Source: Seison nebaliae (Eukaryota > Rotifera > Pararotatoria > Seisonacea > Seisonidae). From it: a stretch of DNA of 22,685 nt. The translations under genes were made by a program, and so were the position numbers. Location of the stretch: the NCBI GenBank assembly GCA_023231475.1, contig JALJEE010001138.1, positions 1-22,685 of the forward strand, written 5' to 3'. Shown in pieces: positions 2,632 through 22,475 of this stretch; within the stretch, counting starts at the first letter, position 1, and every line of letters begins with the position of its first letter. The notes below the pieces were generated by a model, which was not told the DNA's origin, searched no databases, and saw nothing but the letters and a program-made list of their open reading frames with translations.

Positions 2632-5600
2632 TTACATAGTTGATTGAATTAAATTCTCCATGAAAAGTGTTTGTTGATTTATAGAGGTGAATTGATTCCA
2701 TTGGTAGTGAGAAACAGGAATGATGGAATAGTTCATTCGTTTTAATTGATTCATTAATAATTGCACATCGGAGAGATAATGACAACGTTCATTAAGAGCA
2801 ACATCTTGATCGATGAGAGGAATGAAAACGAATTTATGAAATTGTTCGAGTGAAGTTTCAGGATCAGATGGCAATTGTCTCACAGGAATTCCATCTTTCT
2901 TCCTCAAAATAAGTCGAATTGGAACATGAATGAAGAATGGAGGTAATAGATAATTATGAGTAATGTTTTCATTTCCATACATCGATTGAAGTGTATTGAG
3001 AAGTGAACAAATGAAATTCTTACGTGTTGTGTAAGTTCGTTCGTTGACGTCAATTAGATCCATTACCATCTTTTCCGAATGGAAGAAAGGTATGTCATGT
3101 ATTTGATGCAGTGAGACAGATTGATTCAATTGAAGTAACTTCTTTCTTGCCATTTCACTCGGATTTCGACGACGACAATCATATAGTTCGATGCCTACCA
3201 TTCCAACAGTATTCTCTTCGTCTGATATGTGAGGAGTAGTGATAAATTGATCGAATCGTTCGAGAAATCTTTTTGAGAATATTTGTCGGAAGAAATCTTC
3301 GAATTCATTTACAAACTCATAATGGATAATGAGATTAGCAAATGAGAGAACGAGAAGTACAGATGATTTATCGAGGTCGATTGTGTTTTGAAGAATCGAA
3401 TTAAATTGTTTGTATAAGATGGAAGATGAATGTTGTGGAAATGAATGATTAAGATGATATGCTGCCAAGAAATAATTGATTGATAGATTAGGATGAAAAT
3501 AATCATTTTGAATAAAATGAAAAAAGAGATTGAATATGTTTTTGGAATATATTCGAAGATATGATAAATTTCTTAATGATTCATTAAAAGATCGATCGAG
3601 ATTCTTCCGATGACTACTTTTCTTCAAATCGATAAGATTCTTTTCATTTCTCATTCTTTTCTCATTTCCTTTCCACAATTCATGGAGATAAGTTGATGCT
3701 ACATTAATGTTATTACTTAATTTTTGTTGGTCTTTCTGGTTAAATAAATTCCATGAAATCGTTGAATAAACCCAAAGAAGTCGATTTATTTCATTAACAT
3801 TATCTACCGTCATTAACGATGATCTCCATTGAGTATTGTTTGTTCGATGATGATTGATGACATTATCATCATTCATTTCATCCTCATCAGAAAATGTGGA
3901 AGATATTTGGAAAGGAACATTCACCAAATGTGTCGTCAGCGACGATTGAAGATAATTGAGTTGTCTTGCCAGAATTCGGGTATGATAACCATGGAAACGG
4001 TAGATACTATCCTCATTCTTAGATGTGTCAATCGGACAATTTTTAAGATGTTGAATTGAATGCAAAAGAGAACGATTGGTCGTGTAGAGATTTGTTAAAT
4101 TTTTCAAAGACGTTTGTTCAATTAATGATGTTAATCGATTGAAGAGAATACCATCAGGAAAGATGAAAAGTTCTGGTAATCCTTGAAATTTATTCGGTGC
4201 AAATTGATGGAGATGTTGTAAACGTTTTTGTTCGAACGACAATTGTTGAATGTATTTACTTCGATGTTGAATTTTCTCGTCATCACCAATCGATTCATTT
4301 TTGGAGAATCTATATCTCTTTATAAATTCTTCGATATTCTGTTGAGTAAATGCGAGAAGCCAATGGAGAGAATAAATTTTTCCTTGACACATATTTCCCC
4401 ATGACGATTGAGTGAGTCGATGACAAATATTGGTAAAGGTGGAACATAAATATTGAGGATGGAGAATGTGGAGTGGGAAGAATTTTTGTTGTTGAAGCAT
4501 TTGATCGAAATCATTAAATCCCAATAAATGAATACGATTAGCAAGTAATTGTGAAATCTTTAATATTAATTCATAAACATTTTCTGATGTATTTGATGTG
4601 AGTGAAAGTGAACAAAGATATCGGAATAATGTTGTTAATGAAATGAGATGAGCAGAAGTTAATTGTGGACGAAGAAGATTCATTAAGAATTTCTGTTCTC
4701 GATCTCCACAACGTCCATGAAGTAACATAAACAAATAAATAAATTCATCCGAATTTCCATTAATAAATAAATTCGAATTAAACATTTCTCTTCCCATTGA
4801 ATAAAGAACAGATGATGCATCTAACATAGCAGGTGAAATGAAACGATGATCTCTCTCAAACATCGACAACACTTTGAATAATTGAAAGAGCAAATAAGGA
4901 GAAGGTGGTGATAATGGTAATTGTTTCGTTTCTTCATTCTTAAATATCGTCTTCTCGTTGCAATCAATCGATTGCAATTGAGTATATTCATCATCCAAGA
5001 TGTTGTTATGTAAAAAAAGTTTTTGAATAACAGTTGCCGGTCGAATACCATCATCATAATTATTAAGAATATGAAGTAATGGTTGTAATTGATATCGATT
5101 AAAAATAGTCATAAGATGATTACGATAATTATCATTTGTGATACAACGGAAAATATATGGTAATCGATAATAAATCGGAGCGAATGTTTCAATTCCATCA
5201 TTATTCTTCTTCCTTTTTGATAAATCATCTTGATCGATTATATCCATCTCTTTCATTACATCTTCAGCAATTCTGCAGAATTTCAAAAGGAATTCCTGAT
5301 GAACAATCATTCGTAAATTGAACAAACAAATAGATAATTGACGAAACTTTTGAATTGATCGAACATCATTTTCATTCATAAAATTATCTAATCTCTCTAA
5401 TATTTGTCTCATATGAGGATAAAGTAATCGTTGATCATATTTCTTACTCACAACAATAAATAAAGACATCGTTTGTGAAGACAAATCATTTAAACGATTC
5501 AACATCGTTTCTGTATGAAATTCTCGAATAACTTCCTCCTCTAATTCACGAACATTCATTTCTCGTTCATTATCATTTAAATCGAATGATGTCCGATTCA

Positions 5601-5985
5601 ATTTAAATACGACATAAAGTATTTGAAGAATATCTTCATCTGTCATCGAATTCAAACGATTCAATGCCAATGTGAGAAGTCTATCATATTCGATAGAAGA
5701 TCTGATACTGTGAACATGTGCTAACAAAAGTTCAAGCGAATGAGAATAACCATACACTTTCTGCAATTGCCATAATGAATTTAATGCATCAGCAATATCG
5801 TTCTCTTTCATTTGTCGTCGTTTCAATGCTACATGATCGAACACATCTTGCACTGAATATACATTGGAAAAAACTCGATTTCTTAAAATCTCTTGAGACG
5901 AAGTAGATGATGACAAACTTCGAAGAATAGAACAGAAATTCAAACGAATTAAATAATTCTTCTTTAGAATTATTCCCAATTTCAT
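2632..5985 (-). CDS. FAST kinase/RAP-domain mitochondrial protein (FASTKD-like)
   Basis: FASTKD proteins act in the mitochondrial matrix on processing and stability of mitochondrial RNAs. This is one uninterrupted exon of 1117 residues. I start it at the ATG at 5985, not at the more upstream in-frame TTG, because the ATG gives a classic mitochondrial presequence: MKLGIILKKNYLIRLNFCSI then LRSLSSSTSS, rich in Lys/Arg/Ser and free of acids. The body is alpha-helical and Leu-rich with helical-hairpin-like repeats. The last 100 residues match the family: a segment resembling the FAST_2-to-RAP linker (LLPPFFIHVPIRLILRKKDG), then a RAP-type end (QLKRMNYSIIPVSHYQWNQF) where the usual pattern is a Leu/Lys helix, a beta strand and a Trp. 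It is longer than the usual family range of about 550-850 residues, with Asn/Ser-rich inserts in the middle. The family call rests mainly on the C-terminus and presequence; which paralogue it is cannot be told. Confidence 0.8.
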   Translation of the reverse strand: MKLGIILKKNYLIRLNFCSILRSLSSSTSSQEILRNRVFSNVYSVQDVFDHVALKRRQMKENDIADALNSLWQLQKVYGYSHSLELLLAHVHSIRSSIEYDRLLTLALNRLNSMTDEDILQILYVVFKLNRTSFDLNDNEREMNVRELEEEVIREFHTETMLNRLNDLSSQTMSLFIVVSKKYDQRLLYPHMRQILERLDNFMNENDVRSIQKFRQLSICLFNLRMIVHQEFLLKFCRIAEDVMKEMDIIDQDDLSKRKKNNDGIETFAPIYYRLPYIFRCITNDNYRNHLMTIFNRYQLQPLLHILNNYDDGIRPATVIQKLFLHNNILDDEYTQLQSIDCNEKTIFKNEETKQLPLSPPSPYLLFQLFKVLSMFERDHRFISPAMLDASSVLYSMGREMFNSNLFINGNSDEFIYLFMLLHGRCGDREQKFLMNLLRPQLTSAHLISLTTLFRYLCSLSLTSNTSENVYELILKISQLLANRIHLLGFNDFDQMLQQQKFFPLHILHPQYLCSTFTNICHRLTQSSWGNMCQGKIYSLHWLLAFTQQNIEEFIKRYRFSKNESIGDDEKIQHRSKYIQQLSFEQKRLQHLHQFAPNKFQGLPELFIFPDGILFNRLTSLIEQTSLKNLTNLYTTNRSLLHSIQHLKNCPIDTSKNEDSIYRFHGYHTRILARQLNYLQSSLTTHLVNVPFQISSTFSDEDEMNDDNVINHHRTNNTQWRSSLMTVDNVNEINRLLWVYSTISWNLFNQKDQQKLSNNINVASTYLHELWKGNEKRMRNEKNLIDLKKSSHRKNLDRSFNESLRNLSYLRIYSKNIFNLFFHFIQNDYFHPNLSINYFLAAYHLNHSFPQHSSSILYKQFNSILQNTIDLDKSSVLLVLSFANLIIHYEFVNEFEDFFRQIFSKRFLERFDQFITTPHISDEENTVGMVGIELYDCRRRNPSEMARKKLLQLNQSVSLHQIHDIPFFHSEKMVMDLIDVNERTYTTRKNFICSLLNTLQSMYGNENITHNYLLPPFFIHVPIRLILRKKDGIPVRQLPSDPETSLEQFHKFVFIPLIDQDVALNERCHYLSDVQLLMNQLKRMNYSIIPVSHYQWNQFTSINQQTLFMENLIQSTM

Positions 5986-6855
5986 TCTATTCAAAAATCC
6001 TTCAACAAAACTAATCAAACTTTCCGGATCTTACAGATTGTTAGCAAGACCATGCAGATTAACTTTGAAATTTTCATTTTAATCATCAAGCTAATTTTTC
6101 CAATTAAAAAAAATTTCTTTTATAATTTTATTGATTCATTTAGTTAAGTGGCATAATGAAGTAAAAATATTGTGGTACAAATATCTGATGACACAATCAG
6201 TAACAATTTATAATTAACTCTATTTAACAATTCGTAATATTAAATTTAATGTGATATTAATTTGGGATGTAATTGAAAAAAAGAATAGATATGCAAATCG
6301 GCTTTGTAAATAAATGCGCTGCATATTTTCCATTATCTATAGATAAGAGATAGTAGACATGAGAAACGTCAACTAAATTCTTATATTTCGCTTTCACTCG
6401 TCAATTAACTAACATCTGATAATTATGAGACTGGTAGTGAGGTATTAGATATTTTGGTGAGAAGGTAAAAGATAAGTTCATCAATTATTTGTTTTTCTGA
6501 AAAAAATTTAATTAATGTACTTGTTAGCCATCTATTCAAATAAATATATCAAAAACGAAAAATTGAAAATATTTTATTTATTTTTAAAATTCTCAGGTTG
6601 AATTGAATTGTCATTGAACTCGGAACTTATAGTTCACTCAAATTATCTATTTCAGCCAATCGATTGAGTATCTGTTGTGGAAATTTTTTTTTCGAAGTTA
6701 TCCCGACCCTAATTGTGAGTAATAACTAATAAATAATAATAAAATAAGTTATAAGAGAATGTTATGTGTCTATTATTTATTTTAAAGATAAAATTTCCTT
6801 GGACGTTGAAATAAAATTAATTGGAATGTCACTTATTATTATTTCGAGAACGGTT
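5986..6855. other. intergenic upstream of FASTKD-like gene
   Basis: AT-rich non-coding DNA. It should hold the promoter of the FASTKD-like gene and the 3' end of the kinase gene. TTTATT at 6776-6781 (AATAAA on the - strand) is 75 bases beyond the kinase stop. A 14-nt perfect palindrome TTATCTATAGATAA is at 6333-6346. No RNA gene or ORF is supportable. Confidence 0.5.
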
Positions 6856-8283
6856 TTAATTCAAAGGTGAAATTGAATGATTTCTAAATGGTTGAAAGAA
6901 ATAATTGAGATCTCTCCACGATTTATAAGTCTTATAAGGCAATGACATTGTAAAGAGGAAATTGAGAAGTGGTAGAATAGGTCGAAGCACAGGTTCTGAC
7001 ATACATGGAATAAATTGGATAACATGCTTACCTTCTCCGCGATGGGAAAGTATGTTATATAAGCGAATGGTAATGTGACGACATTTTACCGATATATTTG
7101 GTCTAAATAAATATATCTTTTTCATAATAAGTAATATTGATAGAATAGCTACGGAACAAAAATCAATTCTCTGTCCTACATTAAATATTCGACCTTTGGA
7201 AAGATGGTATGGTAAGTTGATTTTCCTTCGTTTCCGTAATATATAATTATATTTATTGATTGCAAAATCTTTCATTGATCCATAAAAATTGTTGAAGGAT
7301 AGTCCATAGTCGATGAGAATGGGAACATAATAACTGGAATTGGGAAATCCTTTGAAATCGATCAAGATGTTCTTTGAATGAATATCCGAATGGTAATTAG
7401 TATAGGAATGCCTTTTATAAAATTGTCCATGGAAAACAGGTTTTTCATTTAAAGTAAAATGGACAGCTTGTAATTGTTTTAGAATCAAAATTATGAAAAC
7501 ATAAAATTGTTTGAGAACAGAAACACGATATGGTTGTGGTAGCTCATTCACCAGATCAACCAATGTCTCACCTTCCACATAGGTCATATCTAAACAATAT
7601 TTTCCTCCTTGGAAGTAATATCGAGTATTGGTAACTACAAAATTGAAAATGAGGAAATTCAATAAATAATAATTAACTTTTTGATTCCATCGTATAATTA
7701 GTATGTTTGCTGTCTGGAAAACCTCCATAATTGAGCGATATTATATGGAATTTGTGCCAATCACCCATAGGATGTATTTCAAATGCTTTCGCCGCATTAT
7801 ATTCCATTAATAATGTATATGGTTTATCACTAACTAAAAAGTGTTAGTTTAGAGACAATTTTCATTTTATCATTAAATAGGAAACTTTTTTTAATAAAAC
7901 GACCACCTGAAGGACTCCTTATTAAATAAATTGATCCTTGACCTCCGGAACCTACAGATCTCTATTTTCATAACATAAACAAATTTTTTTTAAAATTTAA
8001 TTAGGAAACAAACTTCAACAGTATATCCCCTTACAGGACCAAGGGGCAGATGTGATTTATCGATTTCAATATCTTTCAAAATTTTGCAGAGAAAATTATC
8101 TGGAAACTCATCAGTCGCACATTGAACTTTTTTATGGTTTTTAGAGTTTTCGTATAAAACTTTTTCGATTTCATTATATGCTCTTCGTTGAACATACTTA
8201 GTCAACAAGTTATCTTCAATGCAGTAAATTATCTTATGAGAAGTTAGAATGGAAAGTAAAAGAAAAATGTGGAGATTATACAT
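6856..8283 (-). CDS. protein kinase-like protein with signal peptide
   Basis: Four exons on the - strand, 8283-8035, 7961-7886, 7833-7678 and 7634-6856, joined through introns of 73, 52 and 43 bp in consistent phase, give 419 residues. The start is the ATG at 8283, because it begins a clear signal peptide (MYNLHIFLLLSILTSHKIIY) that the upstream non-ATG extension would bury. Residues 22-83 are a small cysteine-containing N-terminal region. The kinase domain follows. A glycine loop GSGGQGS lies at 87-93 and a candidate ATP-anchoring Lys at 107/108. LLMEYNAAKAF may supply the helix-C Glu. The catalytic loop is HSDIHSKN at 242-249 (HxD Asp244, Asn249), the metal-binding motif is DYG at 269-271, and RIDFCSVA may be subdomain IX. 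Key residues are present, so activity is plausible. Entry into the secretory pathway is inferred from the signal peptide. Substrate and subfamily are unknown, and I could not match it to FAM20, VLK or POMK families. Domain recognition is strong; the exact first intron acceptor is less certain. Confidence 0.78.
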
Positions 8284-9030
8284 TTGTCTTTTGAACAAGT
8301 TACTTGTTAGTTGAAAGTAGAATAGCAAATAAAAATAAAAAGTAAAATAAATTTTATTCGATTTTCTTTTTTCAGATGTTTTTAAATATTCTTAGCGAAA
8401 AATATAATTGGTCATTTTCTTGTGAGATATTTATCCAAATTGGAAAAAACTGGAATAATAACTTATATGGGTTGAATTAGATGGAAATTATTATACTTCA
8501 TTAATTCTTTCTACAATAATACTATTAAATTGAAACATGAATTCTTGATATACAATTCTGAAAGTTGTCGTTGTCGAATAAAAAAAAAACAGAGTTTTAT
8601 ATCTTTCTCAATTCTATTCATTTCGAATAACTTCAAATACTATTATAAGTCGTGAAAAATCATTATGATGCATCGATCGGATGTGAAATTGTTTATTCAT
8701 CTTAATCTGTTATTTCATATATATCAAATTGAGGAAAACATTCAATAAATCTTTTAGGAAATAATTAATTTATTATAAAGATTATTAATTATTATTATTT
8801 TATGATTTTATTATATTTATTATATATAATATATATAGAAATTTAACAAATTATTAATAATCGTCAATAGTTCCGTCATTGACATTCATGATGGCTTATC
8901 TTCAAATTAGCGTTATGTCTATAATTAATTAGTCTATATGCAATCGAAATGTAGATTTCACAATAAAAAAAACTAAACATAAAATTGTTAAAAATATTCT
9001 TAAACAAAAGTTTTATTAGTAATTATTCTA

Positions 9031-9388: not shown

Positions 9389-10747
9389 ATGGCGACCAAC
9401 GTTTACATTACATCATCATCCAACAATAATTTGAGTAGGAATGAAATGATGAATTGGGTCAATTCTGAGCTGATGTCAAATTTCATGAAAATTGAAGAAA
9501 TGGGAGCGGGCACTGCTTATTGTCAATTGATAGATATACTTTTTCCTGGAATTGTTCCAATGAAACGAGTTAAATGGAATCCGAGAAGTGAACACGAATA
9601 TCTTCATAATTTTAAAGTTCTCCAACAAGCCTTTAAAGACGTCTCCATCGATAAGATGATTCCAATTGAGAAATTGGTAAAATTGAAATTTCAAGACAAT
9701 TTCGAATTTGCGCAATGGTTCAAAAAATTTTTTGATGCTAATTATCAGGATACGAATGATGAAGAATATGATCCATTAAAACGACGAGGACATGTTCAAT
9801 TGGGAAAAGGAACGAAGAAATTGCCATCTGCTACAAATGTAGGAATTAAAAGTTGTTTCATTTCTCCACATTGTCTCATTTCTTCACAACCTTTTTTTTT
9901 TGGAAGGTAAACCGACAAATTTGAAAACGATTCGTTCGGCTAATCTAACAACAGCGACAACACGATTGAAGAATGGAAAAGAATCCTCTTCTCAACTGGG
10001 AAAAAGTTTTAGAAAGATAACTGATTTTCACTTTATACTTTTCTCTCGACAAAAATAGGATCTGCAAATGTTATTACTAATAATCGAACGACCGTCCACA
10101 ATACGAATAATAATAATAATGGTATGAGTGGAATGTCGACAACGGGATCGAAATCGAGTGAATTCAAAGAACTCAAACAAAAATCAGATAAGATGGAAGA
10201 AGAAATGTCATTCGTTCGCCATGAATTGGAAAGAGTTATCAGTTACAATGATGAATTGGAATTTAAAGTTTTAAATTAAACGAACTTTCTTTTTTTTTTT
10301 TCAATTTATTTCATTCAATTTAGTTATCAGATGCGAATCAATCCGTAATCAAATTGGAGAACGAACGAGATTATTATTATAAACGATTAATTGAATTAGA
10401 GAATTTTTGTTTGAATTTTGAAGAGAATGAAACAGCCAAATCTATTCTTGGTTAGTTTTGAACGTGATAAAAATAGAAAATATTTTTGATTCCACTTCAA
10501 AGATATTTTGTACAAGAATGAAGAATTGGAAGAAACAGCGAGTTTGGGACCATCAGTATCTGAAACGCATTTAGCAGATCAAGATTCTGAATTGGAATCG
10601 GACAATCCCGTTCAATTGCCTGAAGAGAGTTCCGAATCAAAAGAAGTGAATGTGACGGCAGATAAATTGAAAGAGAAATTGAATGTCGGAGACGATTTTG
10701 AAGAGATGGAGAAAAAATTGGCTGCAGAAGAAAATGTCTCATTCTAA
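9389..10747 (+). CDS. EB1-family microtubule plus-end tracking protein
   Basis: EB1 tracks growing microtubule ends through an N-terminal calponin-homology domain and recruits partners through a C-terminal coiled-coil EBH domain. Five exons (9389-9851, 9907-10005, 10059-10267, 10324-10450, 10503-10747) with introns of 55, 53, 56 and 52 bp give 380 residues. The CH domain fills exon 1: NLSRNEMMNWVNSEL, then AYCQLIDILFPG, and KFQDNFEFAQWFKKFFDANY, all highly diagnostic. Exons 2-3 are a Ser/Thr/Asn-rich linker. Late exon 3 to early exon 5 is the EBH region, with the diagnostic ERDYYYKRLIELENFC and SILDILY across the exon 4/5 junction. The acidic tail is about 75 residues, much longer than in vertebrate EB1, and ends EENVSF instead of the usual EEY/F. 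An AATAAA is not obvious close behind the stop; ATTAAA near 10981 is the nearest candidate. Confidence 0.96.
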
Positions 10748-13107: not shown

Positions 13108-13405
13108 TAATAATCGGTCCTCTATTTTTGGTTTATTTTAATTCGAAGTAAATTAATTCCGATAAGTAGAAAATTAGCCGATAAGGAGGGAAGACGATTA
13201 GAGCAGCGTCGTTCGGTAAGTCTACCCAATATAATGAGAGGAATGAAATAAAAATATTGTAATTTAAAGTGAAGCTTAATAGTCAATAGGAAATCTTAAA
13301 AATAAATATAATTTTCTAGAGGTATTTGAGGACTTACATTGTTAGACATCTCTGTCAATTATAAATTATATCTTTCATTTGATTGAATCGAGATAAAGTG
13401 ATCGA

Positions 13406-13429
13406 ATATATATATATATATATATATAT
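13406..13429. repeat. (AT)12 microsatellite beside start codon
   Basis: Uninterrupted alternating AT run of about 24 bases preceded by GATCGA and ending 26 bases before the ATG at 13456. Being this close it must lie in the leader or core promoter of the urease homologue, and length changes could affect expression. That effect is inference. Confidence 0.9.
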
Positions 13430-13455
13430 TATTGATCGGAATAATTAAAACGAAT

Positions 13456-16413
13456 ATGTATAATTGGGAATTAGAGAAATGTTTATTAATGCAATTAGGT
13501 TCCATATCACAACGACGATATGTTCGTCGTTTGTTATTAAATGAAAAGGAAGCGAGATCGTTAATTACAATGCAACTAATGGAATATATGAGAGATGGAA
13601 ATGTGTCATTGAATGAAATCGTTCAGATTGGAAGGAATATTCTTGGTTGGATTTTTTAATGAAAAAATAATAATAAAAAATGTTTGTAAAGGAAAGAATG
13701 ATGTGTTGAAAGGAATTGAGAATTTGATTGAAGATATTTATTTAGAAGTGGAAATTGGAGGATTAAAGAAACCAATTCGAATTATCAATCCAATTCATTT
13801 ATATGATGTTCCATCAACTCATGCACTTTATGCATCACATTTCAATAAACGAAATGAACGTGTGGAAATTGAGGATGAAGAGAAAGAAGAATTAAATGAT
13901 TTTGGTAAAGATCGAACACCTGGAGAAATCGTGAGAAGTAAACGTGTCATCGCTCCAAATAATGGAGCGAAACGATTTCTTATTTACAATTTATCTCCAA
14001 AATCCATTTTCGTTTGTAGTGATTTCCCATTGAGTGAAGCGAACACAGAATTGGAATTTGATAGACAATACGCTCTTCCTTATAAATTGGATATTGAAGT
14101 TGGAGAATTTGTCGAATTTCCATCTATGACATGCGTTGATGTACCGATCTGTTATCATGATTGTAAAAGGATTGATGGTTTTAATGGATTCATTAGTCGA
14201 ACATTGGACAAAATTAATTCGGCAAAATTTGAGGAGAAGTTCAATCGATATCAATATCGGTCATCGGAGCAATTGGAACAATTGAAAGAGAAGAAGAAAG
14301 TGGTGGAAAATATAAAATTGTCCGAAAAGAAATATCTTTTGAGATTTGGACCATCAGTTAATGATCGTATTCGATTAGGTGATACGAATCTTTTTATTCG
14401 AATAACAGATGATTTGACATTGAATGATCGAATATATTTTGATGTGAATGGAAATATGAAAGAAGGAATGAAACAATGGAATAATACAAAGATTGATTGT
14501 TCTTTTGATATGATTATTACAAATGTGATAATTGTAGATAATTTAATAGGAATAAAAAAGGGAAATATTGGAATTCGTGATGGAATTATTCATTCTATCG
14601 GTTCATTAATAAATGAATCAAATCGAAATTTAAATGAAACAAATCTAATTGGTATGTCAACAGAAATCGTTAATGGAGAAGGATTAATCGCTACTCCAGG
14701 TGCCGTAGATATTATGGCATCATTAGAACCAGATTCTTTAAAAGATGCAATTCTTTCTGGAATAACAACAGTAGTTGGTGGTGGTATTGGACCAACGAAA
14801 GCATCAAGACTTACTCATTTGACATCAGGAGCGAATGCAATTAAACAGAATATGCAATCATTAGATGAATTACCAGTAAATGTAGCAATAGTAACGAAAG
14901 GTAATTTACCATTGTTAACATCGAAAAATGTGATAAAAAGAGAAATGGAAGATCAATTAGTATCTGGTGCAGCTATGGTTTCCATCTCCTCCTATTATAT
15001 GACATCCATTTTATCAATTGCCAATTGTATGTCATTATTACAAAATTATCATATTCCTCTCCTCTTATCATTTAATGCATTGAATCAATTAAATAATATT
15101 CAAAATATTTCTAAAGCTATCATCAAATATCAAAATTTACAAAATGGAAACAAAATTAATTTTCATCCATCAATTCTCATATCAGCTATTGTTGATTTGA
15201 ATGATGAATTAGATGATAGTTCTGGTGATAATGTCAATTGTATGCATTTCCTCCTCATTACAAATGATGTGATTGAAATGATAATCTCTAATTCAAATGT
15301 TATCGGTATCAGTTGTGCTGATACTATGGCAGGAATGATGAAAGATGAACAACGATTATATAATGAAATTCTCATAGATACAGGAATTATTGCCGTTTTA
15401 GGATCATATTCTTCCGTTTATTCGAGAGCATCAGATTTCATTCGAATGATATGGATGTGTGCTGATCGAATGAAATTATTAGAGAATTGTCAAATGAAAA
15501 ATTCTCCAAAATTATTAAAAAAGAAAATTTTAAAAAAAAATGGAGAAACTGAACAAATTTCATTTTCACAATCTTCATCTTCTCCTCCTCCTTCACAAAC
15601 AATACAAACAACAATATCCTCAACAGACAATGTCACAACAACAACAACAACAACAACAAAAGAAAATAATGGATTTACAGAAAAATTGTCGACGATAGAT
15701 CAATTGATAGAGATTAGTGACGAATCATCTTTTTCAAATGAGAATTTTTCATCTTTTGAAAACGATTTCATCGATATTGATGATCGAGATTCTACTACTG
15801 ATGATAATGATCGAGTATTGAAATATCTCGCTAAATATACATTGAATCCGGCGAATGCTCTTGGTGCCACATTGGTCGGCAGTTTGGAACGTGGTCGAAT
15901 TGCTGATATTTGTTTGTGGAATCCAAAAACATTTGCAGTTCGACCAGAAATGGTTATTAAAGGCGGACAAATTGTCTCATCAATCTCCGGTACTACAAAT
16001 GGTCGTCATCCGAAAATGGAACCGATACAGATAAGAAAGACACTTGGTTCTTTTGGGAAATCTCCTTGTGCCAATTCAGTTTTCCTTATTTCGAAAGCCG
16101 CCTTCGAAACCAACACGACTAATAGTTATGGTATATTTAAACATGTTGAACCGATATCTCGGCCAAACGCTATTTCTACGAAAGATCTCATTGGAGCTAC
16201 TCAACAACCTGTGCACGTCAGCAGTTAATTATTTTTTCTCTTTCTCTTTTTATATTCATTCAATTTCTAGTCAATATTCAAAAGAATGTCATTGAAATTG
16301 TTAAATATATGCCGGAAGAAGAAGAAGTGAAGACGAAGCATTCTCTTAAATCACTCCAAATGTATGAATCGTCACCATTCACTCCCTTATCCAAAAGATA
16401 TTTTATGTTTTGA
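13456..16413 (+). CDS. urease homologue lacking the active site (pseudoenzyme)
   Basis: Active ureases hydrolyse urea to ammonia and carbamate at a dinickel centre. This gene has three exons, 13456-13645, 13692-16223 and 16271-16413, with introns of 46 and 47 bp, giving 954 residues in plant-type gamma-beta-alpha order. Gamma part: NEKEARSLITMQLMEYMRDG, then the phase-1 junction ILG/KNDVL. Beta part: PGEI and TELEFDRQYA. Alpha part: FGPSVNDRIRLGDTNL, GLIATPGAVD, SGITTVVGGGIGP, LAKYTLNPA, RPEMVIKGG. The short last exon supplies the urease-like end PLSKRYFMF. The start is the ATG at 13456, which gives the normal gamma N-terminus. Against K. aerogenes numbering, His134 and His136 are Met405 and Ser407, Lys217 is Ser494, His219 is Ser496, His246 is Ser523 and Asp360 is Tyr636. 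The His272 site appears to be Leu, and the flap with His320 appears deleted. About 105 Ser/Thr/Asn-rich residues are inserted near 660-769. Urea hydrolysis is not expected; a scaffold or binding role is speculation. AATAAA is at 16558-16563. Confidence 0.93.
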
Positions 16414-16498
16414 TATTGAAAATTTTACATTTCCATATTAACACAACTTTTTCAGTTAATATTTCCTTTTTTTAATTTAATGAATTATTAAATTGAAA

Positions 16499-16551
16499 GA
16501 AACAAAATATTATTAATTTCAATATTTTCCCACTTATAATATTTTGTTTCG
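16499..16551 (+). terminator. 3' UTR hairpin before poly(A) signal
   Basis: Bases 16499-16513 and 16536-16550 form a perfect 15-bp inverted repeat (core GAAACAAAATATTA) with a 22-nt loop, 86 bases past the urease-homologue stop and just before AATAAA at 16558-16563. It could be a structured 3' UTR element. Calling it a termination or stability element is inference, and AT-rich sequence raises the chance of coincidence. Confidence 0.4.
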
Positions 16552-19765: not shown

Positions 19766-21103
19766 ATGGAAGCAGCGAATATTTATGGAAAAGTTTTATT
19801 GGTTTGTTTCTTTGAATAGAAGCTCACATTTTTAAATTATTTTATTTGAATTGTTGAGAAGAATCCATTAAAATTTTTTTGATGTTTCCATATTATGTTT
19901 CTATATATATTATGTATTGTTATTGACGATTATTAAGTAATCGATGATTTATCGATGATTTATCGATAATTAGAGAATTGAAAGAATCTCAGGTATTTAA
20001 ATCTCATCAATTAATTGAAAGATGGTTACTAAAAATTAGATTTATAAACATTTTCCAAATATCTTCTCTTCTCGAGAGAACTTTTAATGATTTGTGAAAA
20101 TTAAAACTTTTCCATTTGATTTTGATAGGAAGAAGAAAGAAGGAAAGTATCAGAATTGTCTAATGAATCGAAATTGGTTTTAAAAGGAGCAGAAGAGAAG
20201 AAGAATTATACGGAATATCCGTCAGCTGCTGAGGCAAGAAGAGTTGGTGATGCATCTGTTATTGGTAGAAATGAACAAATTGATATGAGAGGTCTCGATT
20301 GTATAGAAAGAGATCGAAAAATTAATGGTCGTATACCCATCACTCTCTTTTATCCGAGACATTCGGGAAGAAAAATAATAGTTCTATTTTTTCATGGTGG
20401 TGGTTGGACAATTGGTAATATAAGAACTCATTCATTCGCTTTAAAACGAATTATAGATAGAACGAAAACTATTTGGATAAGTGTTGGTTATTCATTAGCA
20501 CCAGAGAATCCATATCCGAAAGGAATTATCGATGCAGAAGAAGCTGTCAATTGGCTGAAGACGAATAAGAAACAAATTTTAAGAGATTGTTATGGAGAGA
20601 AGATTAGCACGAAATCTTTAAAAATTGGAATTGCTGGAGATAGTGGTGGTGGTACATTAGCCGCTCGATGTACTCAATATAATATGAGTCTTTTTGATTT
20701 CCAAATTCTACTTTATCCAAGTCTCGATTTGAAGATGAATTACGAAGCGGATTCTATGAAGAAATATGGAAAGAATCATCTTTTAACAATTTCCGTTATC
20801 AAATGGTTTACCGATCAATATTTTCATGGGATGGATTTGGAAAAACGGAAAAAGGCTGAATCTGATGTCCGATGTTCACCTGCAAAATATTCAGGTGGAA
20901 AAAAACTACCGAAATTATTAACAATCGAAGCTCCATGTGATCCATTATTTGAGTTACATTTAGATTATTTCCAGAAAGCGAAATCCTGGAAACGGTTTAT
21001 TGTACCTGGTGCTATTCATGGATTCTTTCACAATGAAGCCATCTTCCCTAATAGTTGTGAATTATGTTTCAATATGATTCATAAATTCATTAATGATATT
21101 TGA
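19766..21103 (+). CDS. hormone-sensitive-lipase/AADAC-type alpha/beta hydrolase
   Basis: Serine hydrolase of the HSL family (alpha/beta-hydrolase fold 3), cleaving carboxylic esters such as acylglycerols or xenobiotic esters; substrate unknown. The core exon opens at an acceptor at 20128 and runs 20129-21103. It shows the oxyanion motif HGGGW (from 20393), then GYSLAPENPYP (a family signature). The nucleophile elbow is AGDSGGG (Ser codon at about 20642), the acid Asp is in APCDPL and the base His in GAIHGFF. All catalytic residues are present. The exon has no ATG before residue 40 or so, so the start must be upstream. The best candidate is ATG 19766 (MEAANIYGKVLL, 19766-19801) joined in phase 0 across a 327-bp intron, giving 336 residues; that intron is six times longer than its neighbours, so an unseen exon may exist. 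AATAAA is at 21178-21183. Convergent with LDAH. Confidence 0.85.
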
Positions 21104-21208: not shown

Positions 21209-22475
21209 TCATTTGGCATATAATAAAGTTGGAATAATTTTTGCCATTCCAATTGAATCATGTTCCACGAATGAATGACTAACGTTAAAGGTAAGTTGAT
21301 TAAAAGAAGTTGATTTAATCATCTCTTTCATTTTCTCTTTAGCTCCCAATTTACTTATCTTTCTCTCCAAATTCTTCAATAATTTATTCCGATGTTTATG
21401 TTCCAATAATGGTGTTGTCCATTCATCTGTAGATGAATAAAGAAAATGATGTTTATTGAATTCATTTGTTTGAAGGAAGATATGTCGATCATATGGGGAG
21501 ATTGCAGAAACTTGTTCAAATTCAGTTGCCGCCATATGAATCATTTGGGAGCAAGTGGAAGCAGTTGCTAAATAGTCGACAATCGACTTCACAAAATAAG
21601 ATGTATAATTACCTCCGAAGAATAAATGTCGTAAATAAATAATGAATTTGATAAGAATTTTCGGTGTCACAATAAAAATGAGAGAAAAAAGAAAAGTTAA
21701 AAAATTCCGAATAATTTTCATTTGAAGATATGCCAATTCTTTTCCTTTGAATGATTGAGTCATTCCAAATGTGGTTGGAAATAAATAAATACATTGAACA
21801 TTTCTTGTTAATCGTTTAATGAATGGAATAGCCAATCGATAACTATTCCAATTACTAATTATTGTTCTTTCAATTTCGAGAATATCATCCGATTTCAATA
21901 CATTGATCAATCGTTTCCAATCATTTTCCAAAAAATAAAATTTTGTATCTTTTCTTTCATTATCATCATCTCCTTGCATATGATCGATATGAATGAGTCG
22001 ATTGAAGATGAACATTATCTCTTCTAAAATATAACAACCGATTGAATGACCGATGAATATTTTTTCTCCTTCTTCCCAATATGACATGTCAACGAATAAC
22101 ATTGATAATTGATGAAGAATTTGATCGTCCAAATTATAAAAATGTTTCCTTCCAAATATACTTGAATCTAATTAGACAGAAAAAATTTATTTGAAATCTT
22201 TTTCAAAAAAAAAGAACTTTCTGTATGTCCTGCATGTGATAGACATGTCACGAATGCTTTCTCTCCTATAACTAATTCTTTTGCAAATTCTTCATAAAAC
22301 ATTGAAATACCAGGATTCCCTAACATAACATTAATAAATGGAAATGAGAATAAAAAATACCAGGAATTATATGAATTTTCATTTGATTCTCTTCCGTCAA
22401 TTCCCCAACTTCCAAATAAAGAGAAGGAGATGAGAAAATAGGCATCTTTATTGAATATTTCGGTATAAAATTCAT
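21209..22475 (-). CDS. LDAH: lipid droplet-associated hydrolase (LDAH)
   Basis: LDAH is a serine alpha/beta hydrolase located on lipid droplets, linked to sterol ester and triglyceride handling. Three exons on the - strand, 22475-22361, 22319-22218 and 22167-21209, with introns of 41 and 50 bp (both phase 1), give 391 residues. The short first exon starts at ATG 22475 and ends KIHIIPG; joining across the 41-bp intron restores the family signature IIPGNPG. Exon 2 continues ISMFYEEF and LSHAGH, also typical. Exon 3 has the nucleophile elbow GHSIG (Ser114), the acid Asp320 (SSTDEWTT) and the base His370 (NVSHSFV). A hydrophobic stretch around 225-250 (NFLTFLFSLIFIVTPKIL) fits the droplet-anchoring hairpin of the family. 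It is about 65 residues longer than the human protein (325), largely from an acidic insert after GHSIG (HMQGDDDNERKD). The - strand poly(A) signal is at 21151-21146. Confidence 0.93.

Follow-up and report, generated by a model that had tools for sequence, protein, structure and literature searches.

Urease (EC 3.5.1.5) is a textbook nickel enzyme. The nearest precedent, by analogy, for a relative of urease that has given up its metal site is found in the CRMPs of the amidohydrolase superfamily. Of its six metal residues CRMP-4 retains two; it has Leu in place of the carboxylated Lys and ends in a disordered, phosphorylated tail (PMC4051505). Here we describe a urease homologue from Seison nebaliae, a tiny marine rotifer. 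The animal is found living on crustaceans of the genus Nebalia, and its genome is put at about 46 Mb (PMC8351084). The gene lies on the forward strand of a 22,685-nucleotide contig (JALJEE010001138.1, assembly GCA_023231475.1), referred to below as the window, and encodes a 954-residue protein deposited as "hypothetical protein SNEBB_005877". Judged by its residues, the protein is a urease homologue and not a urease. We read it as a maintained urease pseudoenzyme, non-catalytic and probably scaffold-like, with a probability of about 0.72. Enzymatic death is much better supported than maintenance by selection.

The loss of the active site was examined in a reference alignment of the Seison protein with 209 other proteins, drawn from the matches listed in two homologue searches (one listing 120 of 153). 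These searches scored the 7998 and 8000 candidates with the most shared words, a limit that may have kept out animal ureases of greater divergence. His134, His136, Lys217, His219, His246, and Asp360 (Klebsiella numbering) are each kept in 209/209 homologues, and the same six positions in Seison hold Met, Ser, Ser, Ser, Ser, and Tyr. The sites concerned are listed here, with the predicted local distance difference test (pLDDT) of a structure model where it applies.

14714..14716, + strand: His134 site, replaced by Met405 (alignment)
14720..14722, + strand: His136 site, replaced by Ser407 (alignment)
14981..14983, + strand: site of the carbamylated Lys217, replaced by Ser494 (alignment)
14987..14989, + strand: His219 site, replaced by Ser496 (alignment)
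15068..15070, + strand: His246 site, replaced by Ser523 (alignment)
15146..15262, + strand: His272 region, residues 549–587, largely gapped against active ureases (pLDDT <50)
15293..15295, + strand: His320 site, replaced by Ser598, column less certain (His in 208/209 homologues)
15335..15337, + strand: Arg336 site, replaced by Met612, column less certain (Arg in 208/209 homologues)
15407..15409, + strand: Asp360 site, replaced by Tyr636 (alignment)

A sequence-only reading of this DNA had quoted four strings at the lost motifs, and all four stand in frame as given: GAVDIMAS from 14699, MVSISSYY, LLLSFN, and GSYSS, which ends at 15415. Its further statement that flanking urease motifs can be aligned to either side of each site holds well for HxH, Lys217, and Asp360 and less so at about residues 525–620, where weak alignment makes the His272, His320, and Arg336 columns less certain. 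Near the His272 segment, H555 (in FHPS) is aligned to His272 by phmmer and not by MAFFT. There is no HxH anywhere in the Seison protein, a motif present in 209/209 homologues, and residues 396–660 contain just four His, so realignment cannot supply the ligand set. A six-frame scan of 13401–16500 found the gene free of ligand-like motifs in all + strand frames; its matches were one on the + strand at 16428, outside the gene, and three HxH-like ones on the − strand. Splicing or a frameshift would therefore not restore the site, in line with the earlier view that the replacements are substitutions and not frameshifts. On these residues the protein very probably neither binds two nickel ions nor hydrolyses urea, and the predicted loss of urease activity is near certain.

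The frame, described earlier as continuous, is open for 871 codons, and two short introns link it to the exons for the gamma part and the C-terminus. The deposited protein is reproduced letter for letter by the three exons and is 99% identical to the reading frame of the window. The segment 14699..15415 to which attention had been drawn does hold the quoted strings and is only the middle of the gene, which is laid out as follows.

13456..16413, + strand: whole SNEBB_005877 gene, 954 codons plus stop, three exons whose join equals the deposited protein
13456..13645, + strand: exon 1, encoding the larger part of the gamma domain (hit with fungal urease P0004 as query, E 3.2e-9)
13646..13691, + strand: intron 1, 46 bp, GT-AG
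13692..16223, + strand: exon 2, with the remaining gamma, the beta, and nearly all of the alpha domain
16224..16270, + strand: intron 2, 47 bp, GT-AG
16271..16413, + strand: exon 3, C-terminus (pLDDT 38–71 in residues 901–954, low confidence)
13456..13801, + strand: urease gamma domain, residues 1–100, including intron 1 (PF00547 at 4–98, 63.6 bits)
13916..14209, + strand: urease beta domain, residues 139–236 (domain profile match)
14315..16410, + strand: urease alpha region, residues 272–954, including intron 2 (profile and fold comparison)

PF00547, PF00699, PF00449, and PF01979 all score above cut-off, giving gamma, beta, and alpha fused in one chain. The urease alpha equivalog model TIGR01792 (NCBIfam) gives 269.9 bits, below its 680-bit cut-off. 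Exon 3 ends in PLSKRYFMF, which resembles the family consensus ending PLxQxYFLx. Homology to urease over the full length, as first proposed, is borne out, and the fold is that of urease: jack bean urease (3la4) is matched at E 4.2e-57 and the CRMP chain 4b3z_B at E 4.9e-10.

Identity by domain indicates that the region guarded most by working ureases is the region that Seison let go. Near-invariant columns (≥95% conserved after weighting and filled in ≥60%) number 96, all in alpha, and Seison keeps 57 of them. Retention is 11/40 within residues 480–659 and 46/56 outside (Fisher p 8e-8), and stands at 11/35 vs 46/54 (p 3e-7) once the catalytic columns, five inside and two outside, are excluded. 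Five of the 29 lost half-barrel columns are gaps. All 19 near-invariant columns in residues 765–879 are kept. By an unweighted count over 104 columns, Seison lost 45, the next homologue 18, and the median row 1. Identity to five fused ureases (P0002, P0003, P0004, P0006, and P0096), with the median among those five in brackets, is 28–37% in gamma (60.5%), 27–32% in beta (53%), 33–46% in alpha N (63%), 30–39% in the first part of the barrel (59%), 19–23% in residues 466–660 (72%), and 40–52% in alpha C1 (62%). The eroded stretch is followed by an insert to which the sequence-only reading made no reference.

14939..15478, + strand: eroded catalytic half of the alpha barrel, residues 480–659 (11/40 near-invariant columns kept)
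15482..15802, + strand: Ser/Thr/Asn-rich insert, residues 661–767 (pLDDT <50 in residues 680–764)

The loop between the K658 and D768 columns is 109 residues long in Seison vs 8–34 (median 13) in the 209 homologues, and Ser, Thr, and Asn make up 41% of insert residues 661–767. Simple motif counts gave no basis for reading nuclear-localisation signals or kinase sites into the insert. In the AlphaFold model, barrel strands 1 to 4 (residues 401–496) lie in blocks of pLDDT 77–96, strand 5 onwards has pLDDT 60–67, and residues 549–587 fall below 50. The fungal urease P0004, modelled as a control from the same alignment rows, reached pLDDT 93.1 and a predicted template modelling score (pTM) of 0.93 with no segment below 50. 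Compared with this intact control, the low pLDDT of the half-barrel suggests that some of the barrel may genuinely lack order or have been rearranged. As predicted, the protein is a pseudoenzyme in that the enzyme fold is kept and the catalytic residues are lost, the second half-barrel being modelled with low confidence.

Genome searches cover the 36.0 Mb assembly of a genome estimated at about 46 Mb. The sequence-only reading had called for a search for a separate active urease with UreD, UreF, and UreG, and none was found in the part covered. Queries with the Seison protein and with P0004 match this locus only, and recovery of the gamma exon by P0004 implies that an exon-wise search can work in this genome. 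UreD, UreF, and UreG each gave 0 matches, while 2/14, 2/14, and 6/14 control genomes were matched, respectively, all prokaryotes. Given the size of the assembly relative to the genome, the absence of a second urease and of UreD/F/G is provisional. No arginase was matched in the assembly (8/14 controls matched), and the urea-transporter search was uninformative in that no control matched. An amidohydrolase-family search returned five places in the genome, this gene being one of them. A single CobW-family match (L002, G000:C706) turned up in the assembly and was rejected as a UreG candidate: it matched seven NCBIfam models, all sub-cut-off, and the UreG model TIGR00101 was not one of them. This CobW-family GTPase gene has sub-cut-off matches to CobW- and ZigA-type models.

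Selection probably maintains the homologue now or did so until very recently, a reading that neutral simulation and the regional pattern of conservation both favour. The contrary view is that of a decaying gene in which catalysis was lost recently and the frame is not yet broken. Such decay would suit the loss of 29/40 near-invariant half-barrel columns, in a region partly modelled without confidence, as well as the very long Seison branch and a lineage that lacks many genes. It was set against a neutral simulation of this coding sequence at AT-rich equilibrium (400 runs, indels left out), in which a stop preceded the change of seven active-site codons in 400/400 runs, so that no run kept its frame that long. 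The first stop arose after a median of 0.004 substitutions per site (maximum 0.038), and at least 20 stops (median 67) stood once the seven codons had changed. The simulation argues strongly against pure drift throughout; it may be compatible with constraint having been lost very recently, following a period of altered selection. Decay also sits poorly with the complete retention of near-invariant columns in residues 765–879, the GT-AG ends of both introns, and a C-terminal exon in frame, and we consider it unlikely. The earlier description of a "maintained urease pseudoenzyme" agrees with the urease fold, the ligand loss, the intact frame and splice sites, and the finding that 0/400 neutral runs stayed stop-free.

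The old pocket might instead have been neofunctionalised as a new active or ligand-binding site. Ser494, Ser496, Ser523, Ser598, Tyr498, and Tyr636 occupy or adjoin the former metal and catalytic positions, replacements that are mostly Ser or Tyr could bind a polar ligand, and strands 1 to 4 are the well-modelled part of the barrel. The pLDDT from strand 5 onwards, and in residues 549–587, gives no support for a closed pocket, and no relative shares the Ser/Tyr residues, which leaves a new site with no conservation behind it; we rate this possibility as low as decay. Much less probable than either is an assembly or annotation error that conceals the true active-site exon or another, functional urease. 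The incompleteness of the assembly speaks for such an error, but the deposited protein matches the window exactly and has GT-AG introns, the + strand frames inside the gene contain no ligand motif, and a fungal urease query with an intact site matches this locus only, gamma exon included. Base accuracy of the lineage B assembly is given as 99.99% (PMC8351084), an assembly whose size and contig count differ from those of the one used here.

Several observations weigh against a maintained, scaffold-like pseudoenzyme. The evidence comes from one sequence of one species, with no orthologue found and nothing to indicate that the replacements are ancient or conserved. Related sequences with the same replacements, which the sequence-only reading had proposed to look for, were sought with residues 465–665; this query matched the Seison protein alone among 783 candidates, and the search thus yielded no orthologue. 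The gene is known here from genomic sequence alone. Alpha C2 (residues 846–954) is a weak end, at 23–31% identity to the fused ureases (median among them 43%). Taken alone, the half-barrel reaches 14.5 bits with the urease profile (the highest of 200 shuffles reaches 4.0), with hhalign probabilities of 43% local and 24% global, and a half-barrel so barely recognisable implies that erosion may reach far beyond the active site. The AlphaFold model is moderately confident overall (pLDDT 72.6, pTM 0.70), is low also at residues 112–137 and 901–954, and was built on an alignment of genuine ureases, which imposes some of its resemblance to the fold. The assembly holds 36.0 of about 46 Mb, and the positive controls for the accessory genes are prokaryotic only. 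A scaffold partner and an oligomer are both putative.

A likely history for such a pseudo-urease can be outlined. Ureolysis and its maturation genes would have been lost in a lineage of extreme gene loss, and the structural protein would have stayed on in another function. The nickel site and the catalytic half-barrel would have lost their function, with the rest of the protein staying under purifying selection; the conserved shell would comprise gamma, beta, the alpha N-terminal domain, and the first alpha C-terminal part. The new, largely disordered loop possibly contributes to partner binding. Given the pattern of retained parts and the gained loop, we tentatively suggest, at somewhat less than even odds, that the protein is non-catalytic and probably forms an oligomeric scaffold that binds partners through the conserved shell, and possibly the new loop, by analogy with CRMPs. 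More speculative still is the idea that Seison, perhaps with its sister group, the parasitic Acanthocephala, holds the first pseudo-urease, a multivalent non-catalytic scaffold. Its oligomer-forming shell would persist while the reaction centre has dissolved, and a long disordered loop on every subunit would recruit partners, independently paralleling the way CRMPs arose from dihydropyrimidinase in the same superfamily.

The origin of the gene was approached with a quick tree built from 272 columns outside the eroded half, for 74 of the 210 rows. The Seison branch measures 2.12 changes per column and its placement is unsupported. A clade of Seison with the five fused ureases is not rejected (p-AU, from the approximately unbiased test, 0.74), the best tree with this clade scoring 19.9 log units better than the free tree. 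A grouping of Seison with P0015, P0022, and P0024, of which two bear archaeal names, is already present in the best tree, with a support of 31. The gene may have been acquired by vertical descent or by transfer. The named matches listed for the homologue searches include no animal other than Seison, most of the matches being nameless. A 2011 study placed metazoan ureases in Nematostella, sea urchin, amphioxus, and Ixodes only (PMC3073912). Urease is unmentioned in the main text of the Seison genome paper. About 40% of metazoan BUSCO genes are reported as missing in a study of Seison and acanthocephalans, and the available part of that account of gene loss contains no mention of urease that we could find (PMC12256650). 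"Nickel ureases/hydrogenases" have been reported for the acanthocephalan Dentitruncus truttae, a lead only, given with no sequences or active-site data in the part available (PMC12274423). No account of a pseudo-urease, or of a urease lacking its active site, was found among the PubMed Central titles and beginnings of abstracts listed, a scope outside which most subscription journals fall.

Other features of the window were noted. An open reading frame (ORF) at 2632–6018 (− strand, 1128 aa) carries a RAP domain at its C-terminus and is presumably FASTK-like. ORFs at 6856–7728 and 7990–8328 (− strand) are possibly exons of one divergent gene; a stretch of the first faintly resembles a protein kinase (Pkinase E 0.09, sub-cut-off). 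The ORF at 9389–9910 (+ strand) encodes a CH-domain protein (PF00307), which we take by eye to be EB1-like. Two adjoining hydrolase ORFs lie on opposite strands at 20156–21103 (+) and 21209–22132 (−), in the families Abhydrolase_3 and lipid-droplet associated hydrolase. Some of these families (RAP, CH, Abhydrolase_3, lipid-droplet hydrolase) are typical of eukaryotes, and such neighbours, together with the introns, are evidence against a bacterial contaminant. Phage records gave seven distant matches, all at <60% identity, and were of no use for the identity of the gene.

A urease that kept its shell and dropped its nickel site would separate the role of the urease scaffold from catalysis and, if true, would add a further origin of pseudoenzymes in the amidohydrolase superfamily besides CRMPs. 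Retention of the gene amid extreme gene loss turns "kept for what?" into a testable question.

Jack bean urease (3la4) and the fungal P0004 share with the Seison protein the single gamma-beta-alpha chain, the domain boundaries, the C-terminal ending, and the fold. The Seison protein differs from both in its replaced nickel ligands and catalytic residues, its eroded half-barrel, and its 109-residue loop, and from the eukaryotic single-chain ureases in that no maturation genes were found for it in the 36.0 Mb searched. Ureases with non-enzymatic activities, such as that of Proteus mirabilis, are active enzymes, unlike the Seison protein. Properties independent of urea hydrolysis have been reported for the Proteus mirabilis enzyme, in an abstract that also mentions ammonia as its product (PMC8268090). 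CRMPs are without a gamma or beta domain. They (4b3z, 4cnu) and the Seison protein are both amidohydrolase-superfamily members with a lost metal site, and the comparison drawn in the sequence-only reading is apt in view of the partial metal set and the Leu for carboxylated Lys of CRMP-4 (PMC4051505). The two differ in origin, CRMPs coming from dihydropyrimidinase and the Seison protein from urease, with urease chains far ahead of CRMP chains among its structural matches, and in the place of the disordered segment, which is a phosphorylated tail in CRMP and an internal loop in Seison.
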